IMG/VR virus record: IMGVR_UViG_3300008267_001396
Coordinates: 1 to 22,371 of that record
DNA from: a virus
Length of the DNA: 22,371 bases
Reading direction: 5' to 3' (one strand)
The position numbers were made by a program, and so were the translations under genes. Below, piece by piece: positions 2,491 to 22,299 of the stretch (positions are counted from its first letter, which is position 1; each line of letters begins with the position of its first letter). The notes beneath the pieces were generated by a model. That model made no database searches and was not told where the DNA came from. It was given only the letters and a program-made list of their open reading frames with translations.

Positions 2491-2524
2491 ATTAAAAAAA
2501 AGGAGCTAGTAGAAACCAGCTCCG
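2491..2524 (-). terminator. Rho-independent terminator after the tmRNA
   Basis: On the minus strand GGAGCTGG pairs with CTAGCTCC (one G-T pair, 6-base loop), followed by eight T residues. It lies about 40 bases past the mature 3' end of the tmRNA and is the natural end of that transcript. Confidence 0.88.
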
Positions 2525-2565
2525 TCTCCCTCAAGATATTTCTTGTCCTATTGGTCAAAAAATAG

Positions 2566-2995
2566 TGGAGGTGGTGGGATTCGAACCCACGTCCATACAG
2601 ATCATCTGTAATACCATTCTTACATGCTTAGTACTGTGTTACCACTGCACCGTAAAGGGAACTAACCAGTGAACAAGAGTCTTGTCACCAGCTCCACCAC
2701 CTAGTTTATGAACTAGGAAACTAACTTTCTTTTTACATCATATAGTCTTGGATGGTCAGTGTCACAGGATGTCCTATGTCTTTACATTTGTCATTTTCTG
2801 TTGCAAAGTATGACTACTCCTCTGATTAAGCTAATTCAAGCTCAGCACCAGACAATTCTGCAAGCAGACTGTCGATAGTGTACTCAGAAAGTTCAACTGT
2901 ATTGTTGTCCTTTAATTTTAATCAGTTTGTTTGACCACTGACTAGGTCTTGCATGTGATACTACCTACTTTCTGCTGTCAAATCCAGGCACCCCC
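2566..2995 (-). ncRNA. ssrA: tmRNA (transfer-messenger RNA), phage-encoded
   Basis: The two ends form a tRNA-like domain. GGGGGTG at the 5' end pairs over 7 bp with CACCTCC at the 3' end, leaving an A discriminator. The third pair is G-U, the alanine identity element. The 5' side continues CCTGGATTTGAC, the tmRNA D-loop signature. The 3' side has the conserved CTAAGCATGTA motif and a T arm GTGGG-TTCGAAT-CCCAC. CCA is not encoded. The mRNA-like part has an open frame of about 27 codons ending at TAA 2826-2828. It begins near DNNTVELSEY and ends SGAELELA, and is acidic with no basic residue. A 7-bp hairpin (CCTAGTT/AACTAGG) and others follow, as in the pseudoknot region. tmRNA rescues stalled ribosomes and tags the product for degradation. 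The exact resume codon is inferred; the gene itself is near certain. Confidence 0.93.
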
Positions 2996-6581: not shown

Positions 6582-6616
6582 GGGGAAGTGCTAGTCACAC
6601 TAACATTCTTTCCTTG

Positions 6617-6687
6617 AAACTACAATGAGAATCGAACTCATGTCTCCTGGTTACAATCCAAGGCTTTACCATCTAAGCTATGTAGTT
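6617..6687 (-). tRNA. tRNA-Thr, anticodon UGU
   Basis: A full cloverleaf of 71 bases can be folded. The acceptor is AACTACA/TGTAGTT with a T discriminator. The D stem is GCTT/AAGC with loop AGATGGTA. The anticodon stem is CTTGG/CCAGG with loop ATTGTAA, so the anticodon is TGT and it reads ACA. The T arm is ATGAG-TTCGATT-CTCAT. CCA is not encoded, so it must be added. One base between the D and anticodon stems is missing or shared, a small oddity. The phage coding sequence uses ACA freely, which would explain carrying this tRNA. Confidence 0.9.
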
Positions 6688-8780: not shown

Positions 8781-8946
8781 CGTTTAAGTTTTTAAGGTTT
8801 TGAAATGTTGTTAATACACCTATGACAGATAGTAGATAAATCCATGCTAGTATCATGTAGAATGCGTGTCTGCTGTGTATGTTAAAGGATATAAAAAGTG
8901 TTAGCAATCCTAATAAGACTGCTAACACATTAATTATCTTTCTCAT
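8773..8946 (-). CDS. Small membrane protein, two predicted segments, 57 aa
   Basis: The frame begins MRKIINVLAVLLGLLTLFISF, a positively charged start and hydrophobic helix. After a His/Arg turn (NIHSRHAF) comes a second helix (YMILAWIYLLSVIGVLTTF) and an acidic tail (LNDD), so both ends probably face the cytoplasm. Its ATG overlaps the TGA of the MYG1-like gene (ATGA). It is the first of four overlapping membrane frames. Small two-helix phage proteins include holins and antiholins, but function is not shown here. Confidence 0.55.
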   Translation of the reverse strand: MRKIINVLAVLLGLLTLFISFNIHSRHAFYMILAWIYLLSVIGVLTTFQNLKNLNDD

Positions 8947-9692
8947 ACTCTTGATATTATAGAAGACACTCTAGCACAGGCTATAGCATCTTCTTTGTTA
9001 TCAAATACAGCTAAGAACTTGTTAGAGTGGATGAAATTCTCTTTACCAATGGAAACAAGATGATGATTTACACTATCTCTAGTGAGGAGATTCCATTTAC
9101 CAGCTTGAGGGTAAACGAGGAACATTTCTTCTTCATATCTTTTCCAATGAGAAGGGAAGGCGTTGCACACTACTATGTCATCACCTTTTCTTTCACCACT
9201 ATCCCAGATTTCTCTAGATAGAGTAGCTCTTTCTACGTTCTCTTTACAAGACTGGATGTAGTTACGACATACCCATACAGCTTTATCAAACCCATCTTCA
9301 AGGTTGTTAAAGCTTTTGATAAGGGTGTTAAACTGGAAACCATTCTTATCTTGGGGTCCGTTGCAGTCTATGTCACTAATCTCTAGGAGTGTATCTATTA
9401 ACTCATCATATATGTCACCATCAATATAACTTTTGTTATAGAGATGTTTGAAGAGTAGTACACAGGCAGAGTGGAGATTGCTGTCTTGGTGGTGGTCAAA
9501 GTTGTTAAGCTCTTTATTATATAGACCTCCTACATCAACAATCCAGATGTCTGGGTTGGTGAATTCATCTGCAGCAATGTTCCTAGTTCTTTCTACAGGA
9601 AGGGTTGGTCTAATAAACTCTAATAAGAGAGCAACAGACATAACATCATCAGCATGGAAGATGCTATCGTGGGTGATTACTTTACTAATCAT
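8943..9692 (-). CDS. MYG1-family (UPF0160) DHH-like metal hydrolase
   Basis: A 249-aa protein from MISKVITHDSIFHADD. It has the family's metal motifs: THDSIFHADD (7-16, with His and Asp pairs), IVDVGG (51-56) and NFDHHQ (64-69, the DHH triad). These are followed by a helical middle and a C-terminal domain with the SIGKENFIHSNKFLAVFDNKEDAI ending. The family is distantly related to DHH phosphoesterases; human MYG1 is reported as a 3'-5' RNA exonuclease. In this phage a role in RNA turnover is a reasonable guess. The frame opens further upstream to 9773, but family proteins start just before THD, and the extension overlaps the upstream gene, so 9692 is the likely start. The N-terminal motifs make the family call strong. 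Confidence 0.82.
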   Translation of the reverse strand: MISKVITHDSIFHADDVMSVALLLEFIRPTLPVERTRNIAADEFTNPDIWIVDVGGLYNKELNNFDHHQDSNLHSACVLLFKHLYNKSYIDGDIYDELIDTLLEISDIDCNGPQDKNGFQFNTLIKSFNNLEDGFDKAVWVCRNYIQSCKENVERATLSREIWDSGERKGDDIVVCNAFPSHWKRYEEEMFLVYPQAGKWNLLTRDSVNHHLVSIGKENFIHSNKFLAVFDNKEDAIACARVSSIISRV

Positions 9693-9726
9693 GGGATTTA
9701 TAGTTTTTGTGGTGAATAATACAGGT

Positions 9727-9954
9727 TTAATTAATCTTAGTGTAGTATATAATAGACTCCTGCTCATCTTCATTTATTATATCAAACAATCTTTTACTAC
9801 TGATAAAGTTTTCAGTGTGTCCAGAAGGGTAGACAATAACAATTTGGGTGTCAGGTTTGTAGGATTTTGGGCTGTCCTCTTTGTCTTTTCTATTCTTCAT
9901 CTTACTAATATCATCATAAGAGAAGTTACTACTTTTAATTACTAATGTATCCAT
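9727..9954 (-). CDS. Hypothetical protein, 75 aa
   Basis: A small soluble protein (MDTLVIKSSNFSYDDISKMKNRKDKED...) with a charged middle and a short strand-rich core (TQIVIVYPSGHTENFISS), then an acidic tail. No family recognised. It lies 34 bases upstream of the MYG1-like gene and directly downstream of the structured gene-free tract, so it is likely the first gene of that operon. Confidence 0.6.
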   Translation of the reverse strand: MDTLVIKSSNFSYDDISKMKNRKDKEDSPKSYKPDTQIVIVYPSGHTENFISSKRLFDIINEDEQESIIYYTKIN

Positions 9955-15530: not shown

Positions 15531-15797
15531 ATGGCAAAGAAACAAGAAGTGTATCAGGATGTAGAACCTGGTTACAAAAATGAAGATGACTTTATGAATG
15601 ATTGGGTGTTTCATTATAACACTTACTCTAAACAGTGGGCAGCTATTCCTAGAGATTATTACAATGAGTATTGGAATAATTTTAAGCATCCTGAAGTGTT
15701 AAGAAGTAAGCACATGAATACTTTACTATCTCTGTTGTATAAAGCTAAAGGAAATAAGGACATCATAGAAGACATTGCTAGTGGAGAAATCAAATAA
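15531..15797 (+). CDS. Hypothetical pre-terminase protein, 88 aa
   Basis: A small protein (MAKKQEVYQDVEPGYKNEDDFMNDW...) rich in aromatic residues, with a helical C-terminus (HMNTLLSLLYKAKGNKDIIEDIASGEIK). The ATG at 15531 has the A-rich leader typical of this genome; an ATG at 15510 would overlap the previous gene. The 3' end overlaps the terminase frame by about 20 bases. No family recognised. Confidence 0.6.
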   Translation: MAKKQEVYQDVEPGYKNEDDFMNDWVFHYNTYSKQWAAIPRDYYNEYWNNFKHPEVLRSKHMNTLLSLLYKAKGNKDIIEDIASGEIK

Positions 15798-17988
15798 TTA
15801 TATAGAAATACCCACCTATTCTAATGGAGAATGGAGTGTCACTGAGTTTGCTACAAGAGAAGACTTCAGAGACTTTCTATTACCATTATTTAAAGAACCA
15901 GGTCAGTATGGATTTAATGATGACTCTTTTATATTTAATGCTGAGGGTAGAAAGTTTCAGAAACAAGGGTTTTATTGTGCAGCCCCTGTTAAATCCAAAG
16001 ACTTTATAACTTACTGGGATGATCAAAAAGATAAATGTCGTAAAGGAATTATTGTTCATAGTGGCGAGCATACTTGGTATCTTACTCGTGATTATTATAT
16101 GTGGCTTAATTTTCTTCCCATCTATGATAAAGAAGAAAAAAAGTTCACATTTGCAAAAGTGAGGGATGCTCAATATCACATGGCACTCTATGAAATACTA
16201 GGTGAGCTTCATTGGAAGCATGCTATTATTCTAAAGAAACGTCAGATAGCATCCTCCTATTTTCATATGGCTAAACTTATCAACCAGTATTGGTTTGAAG
16301 CAGGTGCTGTATTAAAGATAGGAGCTAGTTTAAAAGATTATATCAATGAAAAAGGTTCATGGAAGTTTCTTAATGAATATAAAAACTTCTTGAATGAACA
16401 CACTGCATGGTATAGACCAGCTGAACCAGACAAGGTGGGGGCATGGCAACAGCAGATTAAAGTGAGACAGAATAATCGTGACACTTATAAAGGACTTAAA
16501 TCTACAATCAACTCCTACTCTTTTGAAAAAGATCCTACAAATGGTGTCGGTGGTCCTGTAACTTACTTCTTTCATGAGGAAGCAGGTATTGCTCCTAAAA
16601 TGGATGACACTTATGGGTTCATGAAACCAGCATTAAAGTCTGGTCACATTATTACAGGTCAGTTTATAGCAGCTGGATCAGTGGGTGATCTTGATCAGTG
16701 TGAACCTATGAAAGATTATATAATGAATCCTGAGGAGAATGGGTTCTATGGTGTCACTACTAACTTAATTGATTCTGATGGTACTATTGGTGTCACTGGT
16801 TTATTTATTCCTGAGCAGTGGAGCATGCCTCCTTATATAGATAACTATGGTAACTCTAAAGTGGAAGAAGCTTTAGCAGCTCTAGAGATAGAGTTTGCTA
16901 AGATGAAAAAAGAAATGGAACCAGCTGCCTATCAGCTTACTGTTTCTCAGCAACCACGTAATATTGAAGAAGCATTTGCTACTAGAAAGGTGAGTGTGTT
17001 TCCTACACATCTTGTCACTAAACAGATGCAAAGGATATCAGAAAAGAACTATGCTGTAGAGTATTTAGATCTATCTAGAAATGCTGAAGGTAAGATTGTA
17101 GCTAAAGAATCTAGAAAACTTCCTATAATGGAGTTTCCTATTTCTAAGAAGACAGAGGATAAAGAAGGAGTGATATGTATTTATGAAAGACCTTGCAAAG
17201 ATCCTACATTTGGTATGTACTATGCTTCTATAGATCCAGTGGGTGAAGGTAAAACTACAACATCAGAATCATTATGCTCCATCTATGTATATAAGAATCC
17301 TGTAGAAGTTATTATAGATGAGGGTGACGGCAAGGTGAGAAATACTATTGAAAGAGATAAGATAGTAGCATCATGGTGTGGTAGGTTTGATGATCTTAAC
17401 AAAACCCATGAGAGACTAGAGATAATTATAGAATGGTACAACGCATGGACATTAGTGGAGAATAACGTAGCTCTTTTTATACAGTATATTATTTCTAAAA
17501 AGAAGCAGCGATATTTGGTACCTAAGGATATGATATTATTTTTAAAAGACATAGGTGCAAACAGAAATGTCTTTCAGGAGTATGGATGGAAGAACGTAGG
17601 TACACTATTTAAAGGAACTATTCTATCATATGGTATTGAGTTTCTTAAAGAGGAGCTTGATTATGAGACAGACCCTGATGGAACTATTACCAAAACTATA
17701 TATGGGGTGGAGAGAATACCTGATCCTATGTTGCTAAAAGAGATGCAATCATATAGAGAAGGACTTAACGTGGATAGACTAGTAGCATTCTGCTCTTTAG
17801 TAGCATTTGCAAAGGTGCAACAATCTAACAGAGGAATCTCTAAAAGAGTGGAGTATAGTGAGAAAAAATTGGAAAATTCAGAAAAAAGTTATAAATTAAA
17901 AGTGAGCCCATTTAGACATATGGGTAAACCATCTACTCTGAGGAAGCAGTTTACTATTCAGAAAAACCCATTTAAAAATATTAGATAA
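15775..17988 (+). CDS. terL: Terminase large subunit
   Basis: A 737-aa protein with both terminase domains. The ATPase has a degenerate P-loop, ILKKRQIASSYF (about 153-164), of the K-x-R-Q type in which Arg replaces the usual GK(S/T). Walker B is VTYFFHEEAG (E268/E269), followed by the coupling segment ITGQFIAAGSVGDL. The nuclease domain starts with YYASIDPVGEGK (D487), then VENNVALFIQYI and a C-terminal RIPDPMLLKEMQSY, as in RNase H-like terminase nucleases. It packages DNA into proheads through the portal encoded two genes downstream. No ATG is available near the start; TTG 15775 or GTG 15781, both inside the upstream gene, are the candidates. Its stop overlaps the next ATG (TAATG). Confidence 0.93.
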   Translation: MLVEKSNNYIEIPTYSNGEWSVTEFATREDFRDFLLPLFKEPGQYGFNDDSFIFNAEGRKFQKQGFYCAAPVKSKDFITYWDDQKDKCRKGIIVHSGEHTWYLTRDYYMWLNFLPIYDKEEKKFTFAKVRDAQYHMALYEILGELHWKHAIILKKRQIASSYFHMAKLINQYWFEAGAVLKIGASLKDYINEKGSWKFLNEYKNFLNEHTAWYRPAEPDKVGAWQQQIKVRQNNRDTYKGLKSTINSYSFEKDPTNGVGGPVTYFFHEEAGIAPKMDDTYGFMKPALKSGHIITGQFIAAGSVGDLDQCEPMKDYIMNPEENGFYGVTTNLIDSDGTIGVTGLFIPEQWSMPPYIDNYGNSKVEEALAALEIEFAKMKKEMEPAAYQLTVSQQPRNIEEAFATRKVSVFPTHLVTKQMQRISEKNYAVEYLDLSRNAEGKIVAKESRKLPIMEFPISKKTEDKEGVICIYERPCKDPTFGMYYASIDPVGEGKTTTSESLCSIYVYKNPVEVIIDEGDGKVRNTIERDKIVASWCGRFDDLNKTHERLEIIIEWYNAWTLVENNVALFIQYIISKKKQRYLVPKDMILFLKDIGANRNVFQEYGWKNVGTLFKGTILSYGIEFLKEELDYETDPDGTITKTIYGVERIPDPMLLKEMQSYREGLNVDRLVAFCSLVAFAKVQQSNRGISKRVEYSEKKLENSEKSYKLKVSPFRHMGKPSTLRKQFTIQKNPFKNIR

Positions 17989-18205: not shown

Positions 18206-20938
18206 ATGCAAGTATATAACGCCTTAGACCTTAAAGCAGGTAAAAAGACCCAGTATAATAAGATGGGTACTCTCACCCAACCTATTCAGTTTTTACCAAA
18301 AGCTGAGAAGGATGGAGAATGGGGTGCGTGGAATATGGACTGGTTAGAATGGCAGGGTATAAAACAGATTAGACGTAACTCTAGAAAACTATTAAAGAAT
18401 TACAAACTTGCTAAAGGTATTATTGATCGTACAGATTACATTATAGAAGATGATAATGAGTATGCTGATTTAATCGAAACTCTTACTAAAGAAGATCAAT
18501 CTGCATTAGAGCTTAAGTTCTATCCTATCATTCCTAATGTTATAAATGTACTAACAGGGGAGTTTTCTAAGCGCACTTCTAAAATAATGTTTAGAGCTGT
18601 GGATGACATCTCTTACAATGAGATGATGGAAGAAAAAAGAGCTATGATAGAGCAAACTCTTTTAGCTGAGGCTGAGCAGAAGACTATAATAAATCTGATA
18701 AATATGGGTATGGACCCTAACTCAGAAGAAGCACAGCAAGCTCTTAATCCTCAACAATTAAAGTCACTACCTGAAATAGAAGCATTCTTTAAAAAAGACT
18801 ATAGATCTTTAGTAGAAGAGTGGGCTACCCATCAACAAAAAGTAGATGAGGAAAGATTCCACATGTATGAACTAGAGAACATGGCCTTTAGAGATATGCT
18901 CATCACTGATAGAGAGTTCTGGCATTTTAGAATGATGGAGGATGATTATGAAGTAGAACTTTGGAATCCTCTACTAACTTTCTATCATAAATCACCAAGC
19001 TCACGTTATGTTTCTCAGGGTAACTGGGTAGGTAAGATAGAAATTCTCACTGTAGCTGATATTATTGATAAGTATGGATATATGATGGATCAGGATCAAT
19101 TGGAAGCTTTAGAAGCTATCTATCCTGTTCGTTCAGCTGGTCTTCCTATTCAAGGATTGCAGAATGATGGATCATACTATGATGCTACAAGATCTCATGC
19201 TTATAATGTTGAGGGTCCATCTTTAGCATATCGTCAGTTTCTATCTACATATGAGAACATGCCTTATAATGGTGATATTGTTCAGTGGATATTATCTGAA
19301 GGTGAAGACTTTTTAGACTATGGTCCTACGCACATGTTGCGTGCTACTACATGTTATTGGAAAAGTCAGCGTAAAGTGGGTCATCTTACTAGAGTGACAG
19401 AAGAAGGTGAAATTATACAGGATATTGTAGATGAAAGCTATATCATCACTGAAAAACCAGTGTATAATACAAAAGTTACAAAAGATAAAACTAAAGATAC
19501 TCTTTTAGTTGGAGAGCATGTAGAGTGGATATGGATAAATGAAACCTGGGGTGGTATTAAGATTGGTCCTAATAGACCCTCATTTTGGGGTATGAATAAT
19601 CCTGGAGGACTAGCTCCAATGTATATTAATGTAGGTAAACTGCCATTCCAATTTAAAGGAGATAGTACAATATACGGTTGTAAACTTCCTGTAGAAGGTT
19701 CTGTTTTCTCAGATAGAAATACTAGGTCTGTAAGTCTTGTAGACTTGATGAAACCTTACCAAATAGGCTATAATATTGTGAATAACCAAATAGCAGACAT
19801 CTTAGTAGATGAACTGGGTACGGTTATCATGCTAGACCAGAATGCTTTACCACGTCACTCATTGGGAGAAGACTGGGGTAAAAATAATCTGGCTAAAGCC
19901 TATGTTGCTATGAAGAACTTCCAGATGCTACCATTGGATACTTCTATCACTAATACAGAGAATGCTCTTAACTTTCAACACTACCAAGTGTTAAATCTAG
20001 AACAAACTCAACGTCTACTATCTAGGATTCAACTAGCAGGGTATTTTAAAAACACTGCATTTGAAAGTATAGGAATTAGCCCTCAGCGTATGGGATCTAT
20101 AACAGGACAGCAAACAGCTACTGGTATAGAACAAGCTGTTGTGAATTCATATGCTCAGACAGAACACTATTTTGTACAGCATTGTGACTATCTAATGCCT
20201 AGAGTGCACCAAATGAGAACTGACTTAGCTCAGTATTACCATTCTAAAAATCCAAGTTTAAGACTTCAATATATAACATCTACTGATGAGAAGGTTAACT
20301 TTAAGATGAATGGTGTAGACTTGCTATCAAGAGATTTAAATGTATTTGCTACAACAAAGAGCAACCACAGGGCTGTGCTAGATCAGCTTAAGCAATTAGC
20401 TCTTACTAATAATACAGCTGGAGCTTCTATATATGATCTTGGTAACATTGTTAAATCTGAGTCTATTGCTGAGTTAACAAGTGTTCTTAAAGCTGCTGAA
20501 GAGAAAGCTAATGTTATTAGACAAGAGCAAGCACAGCAACAACAGCAGATGCAAGAGCAAGAACTACAAGCTAGACAACAAGAAGCTCAGATGAAGATGG
20601 AGTTTGAAGCTCAAGAGAATGAAAAAAATAGACAATCTCAAATTATACAAGCTCAAATAAGATCTGCTGGGTATGGGTCTACTGTAGATATTAACCAAAA
20701 CTTGCAGTCAGATTATCTTGATGCAATGGAAAAAATACAGAAGCAAGATAATTACAAAGAGAGTATGAACTTTGAGAGAGAAAAAGAACTTAATAAAACA
20801 GCATCTCAAAGAGAGCTTAATGCAATTAAAGAAAAAGAGATACAAGCTAGAGAAGCTATAGCAAATAAACAACTAGAAATAGCACGTACTAATAAGAATA
20901 AGTATGATGCAAAATCTTCTGATAAGAAGAAAAAATAA
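18206..20938 (+). CDS. Portal protein
   Basis: A 910-aa protein directly after the terminase. The N-terminal part has the pattern KLAKGIIDRTDYIIEDDNEYADL and FYPIIPNVINVLTGEFSKRTSKIMF seen in large portal proteins of crAss-like phages. The middle contains typical stem/wing segments. From about residue 770 there is a long Gln/Glu-rich coiled coil (EEKANVIRQEQAQQQQQM...) ending in a lysine tail (SSDKKKK). The portal ring forms the DNA gate at one prohead vertex, docks the terminase and the neck, and this size is large for portals in general. A promoter-like spacer follows, so the next genes may be regulated separately. Confidence 0.9.
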   Translation: MQVYNALDLKAGKKTQYNKMGTLTQPIQFLPKAEKDGEWGAWNMDWLEWQGIKQIRRNSRKLLKNYKLAKGIIDRTDYIIEDDNEYADLIETLTKEDQSALELKFYPIIPNVINVLTGEFSKRTSKIMFRAVDDISYNEMMEEKRAMIEQTLLAEAEQKTIINLINMGMDPNSEEAQQALNPQQLKSLPEIEAFFKKDYRSLVEEWATHQQKVDEERFHMYELENMAFRDMLITDREFWHFRMMEDDYEVELWNPLLTFYHKSPSSRYVSQGNWVGKIEILTVADIIDKYGYMMDQDQLEALEAIYPVRSAGLPIQGLQNDGSYYDATRSHAYNVEGPSLAYRQFLSTYENMPYNGDIVQWILSEGEDFLDYGPTHMLRATTCYWKSQRKVGHLTRVTEEGEIIQDIVDESYIITEKPVYNTKVTKDKTKDTLLVGEHVEWIWINETWGGIKIGPNRPSFWGMNNPGGLAPMYINVGKLPFQFKGDSTIYGCKLPVEGSVFSDRNTRSVSLVDLMKPYQIGYNIVNNQIADILVDELGTVIMLDQNALPRHSLGEDWGKNNLAKAYVAMKNFQMLPLDTSITNTENALNFQHYQVLNLEQTQRLLSRIQLAGYFKNTAFESIGISPQRMGSITGQQTATGIEQAVVNSYAQTEHYFVQHCDYLMPRVHQMRTDLAQYYHSKNPSLRLQYITSTDEKVNFKMNGVDLLSRDLNVFATTKSNHRAVLDQLKQLALTNNTAGASIYDLGNIVKSESIAELTSVLKAAEEKANVIRQEQAQQQQQMQEQELQARQQEAQMKMEFEAQENEKNRQSQIIQAQIRSAGYGSTVDINQNLQSDYLDAMEKIQKQDNYKESMNFEREKELNKTASQRELNAIKEKEIQAREAIANKQLEIARTNKNKYDAKSSDKKKK

Positions 20939-21039: not shown

Positions 21040-22299
21040 ATGAATACACAAACCAATAGTGCACAGACAGTTGTGCAACAAGTAGACTTTGACATAGATT
21101 CTCTTTTTGATGGAGCACCTGGGGCTGATAGTATTGTAACTCCTGTTGATGGAGCAGCAAACTTAAATGAAAAAAAACCAAATGTGTTTAGCACTGGTAA
21201 AGTAGATTTAAGTTTTTTAGATCCTGGAGCTGAAAAAGAAGAAGAGAAAAAAGAAGAGGATAGTTCAGATGATAAAAAGGTTTCACATGAAACAGTAACT
21301 AAAGATGACATAGATGACATCTTAAATACTGCAGATGATGAAAATACTGAAGATAAAAACTCAAGTGGAAGACCAAGATTAGATAAGTCTGGTTTGGTTG
21401 ACACGATGAGTAAGTTAATAGACGAAGGACTACTTATTCCATTTGATGATGAGAAACCAATGGATGAGTATTCTGTAAAAGATTGGAAGGAGCTTTTAGA
21501 AGCAAACTTTCTAGAGAAAGAAAAAGGTGTAAGACAACAAACACACCAAGAGTTATTTGAATCACTACCAGTAGAGTTGCAATATGCAGCTAAATATGTA
21601 GAAGATGGTGGTCAGGATATGAAAGGTTTATTTAGAGCACTTGCTCAAGTTGAGGAAGTAAGAGAAATGAACCCATCTGATCCTAATGACCAAGAATACA
21701 TTGTTAGACAGTATATGCAAGCTAAGGGTATTAACAGTGCTACAATTGATGAGGATATTGAGACCTGGAAAGATCTTGGTAAACTAGAACAAAAAGCAAA
21801 GCAGTACAAACCTGAACTAGATCAAATGCAAGAACAGGTTGTTATGCAACAGTTAGCAGTTCAGGAGCAAATGAAACAACAACAGCAAGAAGCAGCTGAT
21901 GCTTATGTTGAGAATGTTTATGAAGCTTTAAAAACAGCTGACTTAAATGGTGTAAAACTTGATAAAAAAACACAAGCGCAACTTTACACTGGACTAGTTC
22001 AACCACAATATCCTTCAATTAGTGGACGTCCTACTAACTTATTAGGGCATCTATTAGAGAAGTATCAGTTTGTAGAACCTAACTACCCACTTATAGCTGA
22101 AGCTCTTTGGTTACTTTCTGATCCTGATGCATATAGACAAAACCTTATGAAACAGGGTAAGAATGAAGCTGTTACTCAAACTGTTAGACAACTTAAAACA
22201 GAACAGGCTAATAAGATAGCTAGTTCAGTTCAAGATGATGATGGTGATACAAGACAACAAAGAAAAATAGCAAGACCAACAAATATTTTTAAAAGATAA
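21040..22299 (+). CDS. Acidic scaffold-like protein upstream of the capsid gene
   Basis: A 419-aa protein. The first 110 residues are disordered and very acidic (EKEEEKKEEDSSDDKK, DDIDDILNTADDENTED). A folded or helical part follows (about 125-240), then a Gln-rich coiled coil (DQMQEQVVMQQLAVQEQMKQQQQEAADAY) and a basic C-terminus (RQQRKIARPTNIFKR). Acidic, coiled proteins with a basic C-terminal end between portal and capsid genes are typical scaffolds, which line the prohead and bind the capsid protein by the basic tail. Identification is by composition and position; a minor head protein is the alternative. Confidence 0.65.
   Translation: MNTQTNSAQTVVQQVDFDIDSLFDGAPGADSIVTPVDGAANLNEKKPNVFSTGKVDLSFLDPGAEKEEEKKEEDSSDDKKVSHETVTKDDIDDILNTADDENTEDKNSSGRPRLDKSGLVDTMSKLIDEGLLIPFDDEKPMDEYSVKDWKELLEANFLEKEKGVRQQTHQELFESLPVELQYAAKYVEDGGQDMKGLFRALAQVEEVREMNPSDPNDQEYIVRQYMQAKGINSATIDEDIETWKDLGKLEQKAKQYKPELDQMQEQVVMQQLAVQEQMKQQQQEAADAYVENVYEALKTADLNGVKLDKKTQAQLYTGLVQPQYPSISGRPTNLLGHLLEKYQFVEPNYPLIAEALWLLSDPDAYRQNLMKQGKNEAVTQTVRQLKTEQANKIASSVQDDDGDTRQQRKIARPTNIFKR

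Follow-up and report, generated by a model that had tools for sequence, protein, structure and literature searches.

A tmRNA gene in a crAss-like phage with a long acidic tag and an altered C-terminal end

The window considered here is a stretch of viral DNA of 22,371 nucleotides (IMG/VR record IMGVR_UViG_3300008267_001396) which harbours a genuine tmRNA (ssrA) gene on its minus strand at 2566-2995. A first-pass annotation had described a 430-base tmRNA at this position, and this is borne out both by ARAGORN (2565-2995, minus strand) and by a full-length match to Rfam family RF00023 (2995-2563, minus strand; 78.6 bits, E 2.8e-29; gathering score 47). The 5' end lies at 2995 and the discriminator base is the A at 2566, which is followed by CTA, so that CCA is not encoded in the gene. 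Read directly from the sequence, the acceptor stem GGGGGUG/CACCUCC includes the G3-U70 pair, a mark of alanine acceptance, and the T arm reads GTGGG-TTCGAAT-CCCAC, with CTAAGCATGTA as a further element. PK1 (2920-2948, minus strand), also read from the sequence, is an H-type pseudoknot with GACC/GGUC as stem 1 and AGUCAGU/ACUGAUU as stem 2. The G3-U70 pair is invariant in the window tmRNA and in all 13 relatives checked. Acceptor and T-stem pairing is likewise intact throughout this set although acceptor positions 4-7 vary, and the acceptor pairs 4-7 and the T-stem pairs covary; in two relatives (L190 and L139) a reading by eye finds both PK1 stems preserved with different bases. Downstream of the gene lies a likely intrinsic terminator (2494-2523, minus strand) composed of the hairpin GGAGCTGGTTTCTACTAGCTCC and a run of T8; a terminator consensus scan found one such element where 0.3 would be expected.

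The phage is crAss-like (Crassvirales), as judged from its large terminase (15775-17988, plus strand; PHROG 6681, E 9.4e-63) and its portal protein (18206-20938, plus strand; PHROG 6547, E 4.2e-91). In tblastn the terminase matches Flavobacterium phage FPSV-D18 with an E value of 2e-36 as well as cr130_1 and cr1_1, and over most of its length it shares about 25% identity with Flavobacterium, Bacteroides and uncultured crAss-like phages. Because the phage is crAss-like, its host probably belongs to the Bacteroidota. The window also contains a tRNA-Thr (TGT) gene at 6616-6687 (minus strand), at a distance of 3.6 kb from the tmRNA gene, and a reading frame at 8943-9773 in which a match to the MYG1/UPF0160-like exonuclease domain is confined to residues 31-98 (Pfam E 5.6e-14).

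The tag reading frame, DNNTVELSEYTIDSLLAELSGAELELA, occupies 2829-2909 on the minus strand and ends at a TAA stop codon (2826-2828, minus strand). Its resume codon, GAC at 2909-2907, lies 10 nucleotides 3' of PK1 at the position given by the Rfam alignment and corresponds to a gene offset of 87; ARAGORN itself calls an offset of 86-87 in four relatives (L009, L190, L242 and L235). For the window ARAGORN proposes a 22-residue tag starting at offset 102, which would begin five codons late and lose DNNTV; the Rfam alignment and the offsets in the relatives contradict this start. The tag thus read has 27 residues, seven acidic and none basic, and terminates in ELELA, in agreement with the composition and length of about 27 codons first proposed, and fixing the ends and the resume codon with Infernal and Rfam upheld the long tag instead of uncovering a short peptide of the ALAA type. 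ELELA lacks the LAA-like end of the canonical ClpXP ssrA degron. The computed probability that a random frame with a fixed start shows no stop over 27 codons is about 0.14, and the length of the frame by itself is therefore weak evidence; at the level of comparative sequence analysis the tag is established by its conservation in relatives and by the ratio of nonsynonymous to synonymous change (see below).

As regards the structure of the tag, a hydrophobic-moment test for an amphipathic helix in its interior gave values no better than those of shuffled tags, and AlphaFold, applied to an isolated 31-residue peptide, predicts one short helix at tag residues 12-21 with modest confidence (mean pLDDT 68). 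Compared with the other proteins of the window or of the related phage G003, the tag shows no similarity beyond the scores of shuffled tags. The N-terminal stretch TVVQQVDFDIDSLFDGAPGAD of the window reading frame at 21040-22299 is similar to the tag interior, with a score inside the shuffled-tag range. A tblastn search of phages with the tag returned no match, but this negative carries no information, as a query so short also missed the mycobacteriophage ET08 tag that is present; an initial scan of viral contigs with a tag motif, which was too strict, returned none either.

A search of viral contigs with a 3' tmRNA pattern yielded 35 loci and, combined with the other searches, about 30 related phage tmRNAs with tags of 23-27 residues, several of them at the same genomic locus. 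Seven of the eight long-tag loci scanned reach the gathering score of RF00023; the remaining one, L130, scores 42.3 bits, with acceptor and tag intact. Matches to the phage 3' pattern in genome contigs held no tmRNA according to ARAGORN, and three inspected sequences were devoid of tmRNA features. Long tags are not a property of phage tmRNAs at large: of 47 distinct tags taken from a generic sample, 22 have at most 12 residues and 20 have at least 18, a few ARAGORN start errors included.

The window tag belongs to family A, which has eight members (the window, L123, L247, L130, L139, L190, L164 and L009) and the consensus [DG]N..V[ED]LS.YT.[DE]SL.AEL with the terminus [LV]A. All eight end in ELELA, ELEVA, LALA or AVLA and never in LAA, and all retain the terminal alanine. 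Five intermediate tags (L242, L186, L226, L246 and L030) have AA ends, and the family B tags, of which VKSQSERVEEGASIIAMAFASELALAA is an example, have retained theirs as well, three of them ending exactly in EYALAA. One family B tmRNA, L232, shares its contig with L098, the terminase of which has 79% identity to that of the window, and the genes flanking the tmRNA are common to family A members and to the family B loci L232, L233 and L244; the tags of both families therefore occupy one orthologous locus, despite which their sequences are strongly divergent. The same-locus siblings outside the window's subclade end in EYALAA, ALAA, AVAA or AIAA and are equally long, and across the tags compared only the window's subclade of eight has lost the AA end.

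Several further features of the related tmRNAs may be mentioned. The stop codon of the tag frame is TAG in L247, L130, L235, L239 and others, and read-through would extend the tag; TAG is reassigned in some crAss-like phages. Three loci of other large phages (L166, L177 and L185, on contigs of up to 204 kb) encode tags of 30-31 residues with a common [VL]xEADA motif and LLAA or ALAA ends, for example AKSEFDFAPSVAEADAFLKAAGFVDAELLAA, in a style like that of family B and of mycobacteriophage tags. At L151 (2422-2822) the tag called by ARAGORN is seemingly too short, and the frame from an upstream start reads ANKVVAEYSVSFETVAEYDYSFEDAVAEV, with an internal repeat.

Selection on the tag codons was assessed in eight disjoint pairs, in which 23 synonymous and 22 nonsynonymous changes give a pN/pS of 0.31 (binomial p = 1e-4); when the pair L130/L139 is left out the ratio becomes 0.42 (p 0.01-0.02), the sample being small with 45 changes. 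The tag thus appears to be under purifying selection at the amino-acid level, which would imply that the peptide and not the RNA alone is constrained. This bears on the idea that the gene is a decaying or an inhibitory tmRNA, such as a decoy that titrates SmpB and has no translated tag. A precedent is mycobacteriophage DS6A, which has nothing but a tmRNA-like domain; a molecule of this kind is capable of inhibiting tmRNA (PMC4131195). Here, however, the full-length structure, PK1, the resume region, the open frame and its stop are all intact, the stems covary and selection acts at the level of the tag, which makes a decoy very improbable.

It is also conceivable that ClpXP reads the long tag as an ordinary degron with an inert spacer, and that constraint on the interior is only weak and stems, for instance, from RNA structure or from the speed of translation. 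A five-residue YALAA tail is indeed sufficient for the degradation of GFP by ClpXP (PMC7652416), a frame of this length is open by chance with P about 0.14, and the tags of families A and B are very different in sequence at one locus. Against this stand the purifying selection on the amino acids, the length, which stays at 23-27 residues across diverged tags, and the absence of any tag so long among the host tags of 60 genomes, and an inert interior is accordingly regarded as unlikely.

The comparison of the tag with those of Bacteroidota and related phages, suggested at the outset, separates the long phage tags from the host tags by length. RF00023 matches in 61/61 Bacteroidota genomes, above the cut-off in 60, and the tags of these 60 all have 9-10 residues and an AA end (58 taken from ARAGORN, and two, NDEYSYSLAA and DNTSFALAA, read by eye after a miscall). 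Like the phage gene, the chromosomal gene encodes a one-piece tmRNA, and its tag starts GE, DN and GN resemble some phage tag starts; it differs in that the phage tag is about three times longer. Matches to ClpP and to a Lon domain are present in 61/61 Bacteroidota genomes, although the Lon_C match is weak in some and possibly reflects another Lon-domain protein. No match to SmpB, ClpP, Lon or SspB was detected in 14 long-tag phage contigs (79-204 kb and possibly incomplete; two of them, G015 and G016, outside the crAss-like set), so host SmpB would be required.

Phage tmRNAs are known, one survey of 18,146 phage genomes having recorded them in 402 (PMC9004378), and long acidic phage tags as such are already annotated in mycobacteriophages. 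The tmRNA of mycobacteriophage ET08 encodes the acidic 25-residue tag ATDTDATVTDAEIEAFFAEEAAALV, which 195 phage records match, and ET08 and its relatives (Bixzunavirus) share with the window a one-piece tmRNA, a long acidic tag and a non-ALAA end. ET08 nevertheless belongs to an unrelated phage group with a host of another phylum, and its tag ends in ALV and has no evident homology to that of the window. Similar in length is the ssrA tag of the Mollicute Mesoplasma florum, which has about 27 residues and is recognised by Lon and not by ClpXP (PMC9382460, PMC3439342). That tmRNA is cellular, however, its tag ends in NYAFA, and active ClpXP is missing from the cell, whereas ClpP is retained in the presumed host phylum of the window phage (61/61); the phage tag is hence not a case of a long tag in a cell lacking ClpXP. 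The Crassvirales members cr7_1 and cr124_1 are likewise crAss-like phages with an annotated tmRNA, but ARAGORN calls it as permuted, with the 3' part first, and with a 13-residue tag, DNVNNIVDYTNVA or GNVNNIVDYTNVA. At these two loci (L322 and L323, 2945-3301) the acceptor halves GGGCGTG/CACGTCC pair with G3-U70 present, and for gut crAss-like phages a tmRNA in two pieces is seemingly unusual. A literature search of partial coverage found no paper on long tags in crAss-like phages. What is new here is a crAss-like tmRNA family whose tags are conserved, have 23-27 residues, fall into two families at a single locus and are under selection, as opposed to uniformly short host tags, together with a subclade in which the AA end is lost.

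The reading towards which we lean, by a modest degree, is that the phage tmRNA performs ordinary trans-translation and that its tag is a lengthened degron in which the interior plays a further part in recognition. In the course of infection the phage tmRNA would replace or supplement that of the host. With G3-U70 retained it would be charged with alanine by the host alanyl-tRNA synthetase, bind host SmpB and enter stalled ribosomes, where alanine and the 27-residue tag would be appended to the nascent protein. The tag would then act as a two-part degradation signal comprising the C-terminal end (ELELA, or YALAA-like in siblings) and a conserved interior of 10-16 residues, the latter possibly offering a protease or adaptor of the host a second site of recognition, and the handling of tagged proteins, or the protease used, would be shifted relative to the host's short tag. 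Since the siblings outside the window's subclade all have AA ends, degradation is the likely default, and since the long tags at the same locus carry such ends, the long interior arose in tags that kept a ClpX-type end; within the subclade alone this end was changed.

A different suggestion, made in the first-pass annotation, is that the subclade tag does not serve degradation, so that ribosomes are freed while the tagged protein remains stable or is given a functional acidic tail. The replacement of LAA by ELELA, ELEVA, LALA or AVLA in 8/8 subclade members would fit this idea, as would the acidic character of the tag with its lack of basic residues and the importance of the penultimate and ultimate ssrA alanines for the KM of ClpXP (PMC7652416). 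The non-ALAA end is thus upheld, but the proposed bypass or tail sits poorly with same-locus siblings of the same overall length that end in YALAA, AVAA or AIAA, with the terminal alanine and free carboxylate kept in the subclade and with the finding that no other G003 protein is tag-like beyond chance. A tag that spares its proteins is consequently judged improbable.

ClpXP makes contact with the final ssrA residues and the carboxylate; when the two terminal alanines are replaced, KM increases and Vmax is little affected (PMC7652416). As such substitutions mainly alter KM, ELELA may be weakened as a ClpXP signal without being inactive. Recognition by Lon involves several sequence elements as well as hydrophobic stretches (PMC11986505), and Lon reads the long Mollicute tag (PMC9382460). 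For the phage tag, a change of reader to Lon or to an adaptor would be plausible. The earlier proposal that the tag is read poorly or by another protease is possible, with Lon in Mollicutes as its precedent, although the presumed host phylum keeps ClpP. A more far-reaching and doubtful version holds that the lineage-specific long tag binds a protease or adaptor of the host through its interior and so diverts rescue products from the host ssrA pathway, the loss of the ClpX end in the window's subclade completing a protease switch in a ClpXP-bearing host.

The phage tmRNAs are not mere copies of those of their hosts: the tags retained in this whole phage lineage are about three times as long as the host's, and their amino acids appear to be under selection. 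What phages gain from a tmRNA of their own thereby becomes a testable question, and the natural degron series formed by ELELA, AVAA and YALAA ends on long interiors may be used to probe which protease reads them.
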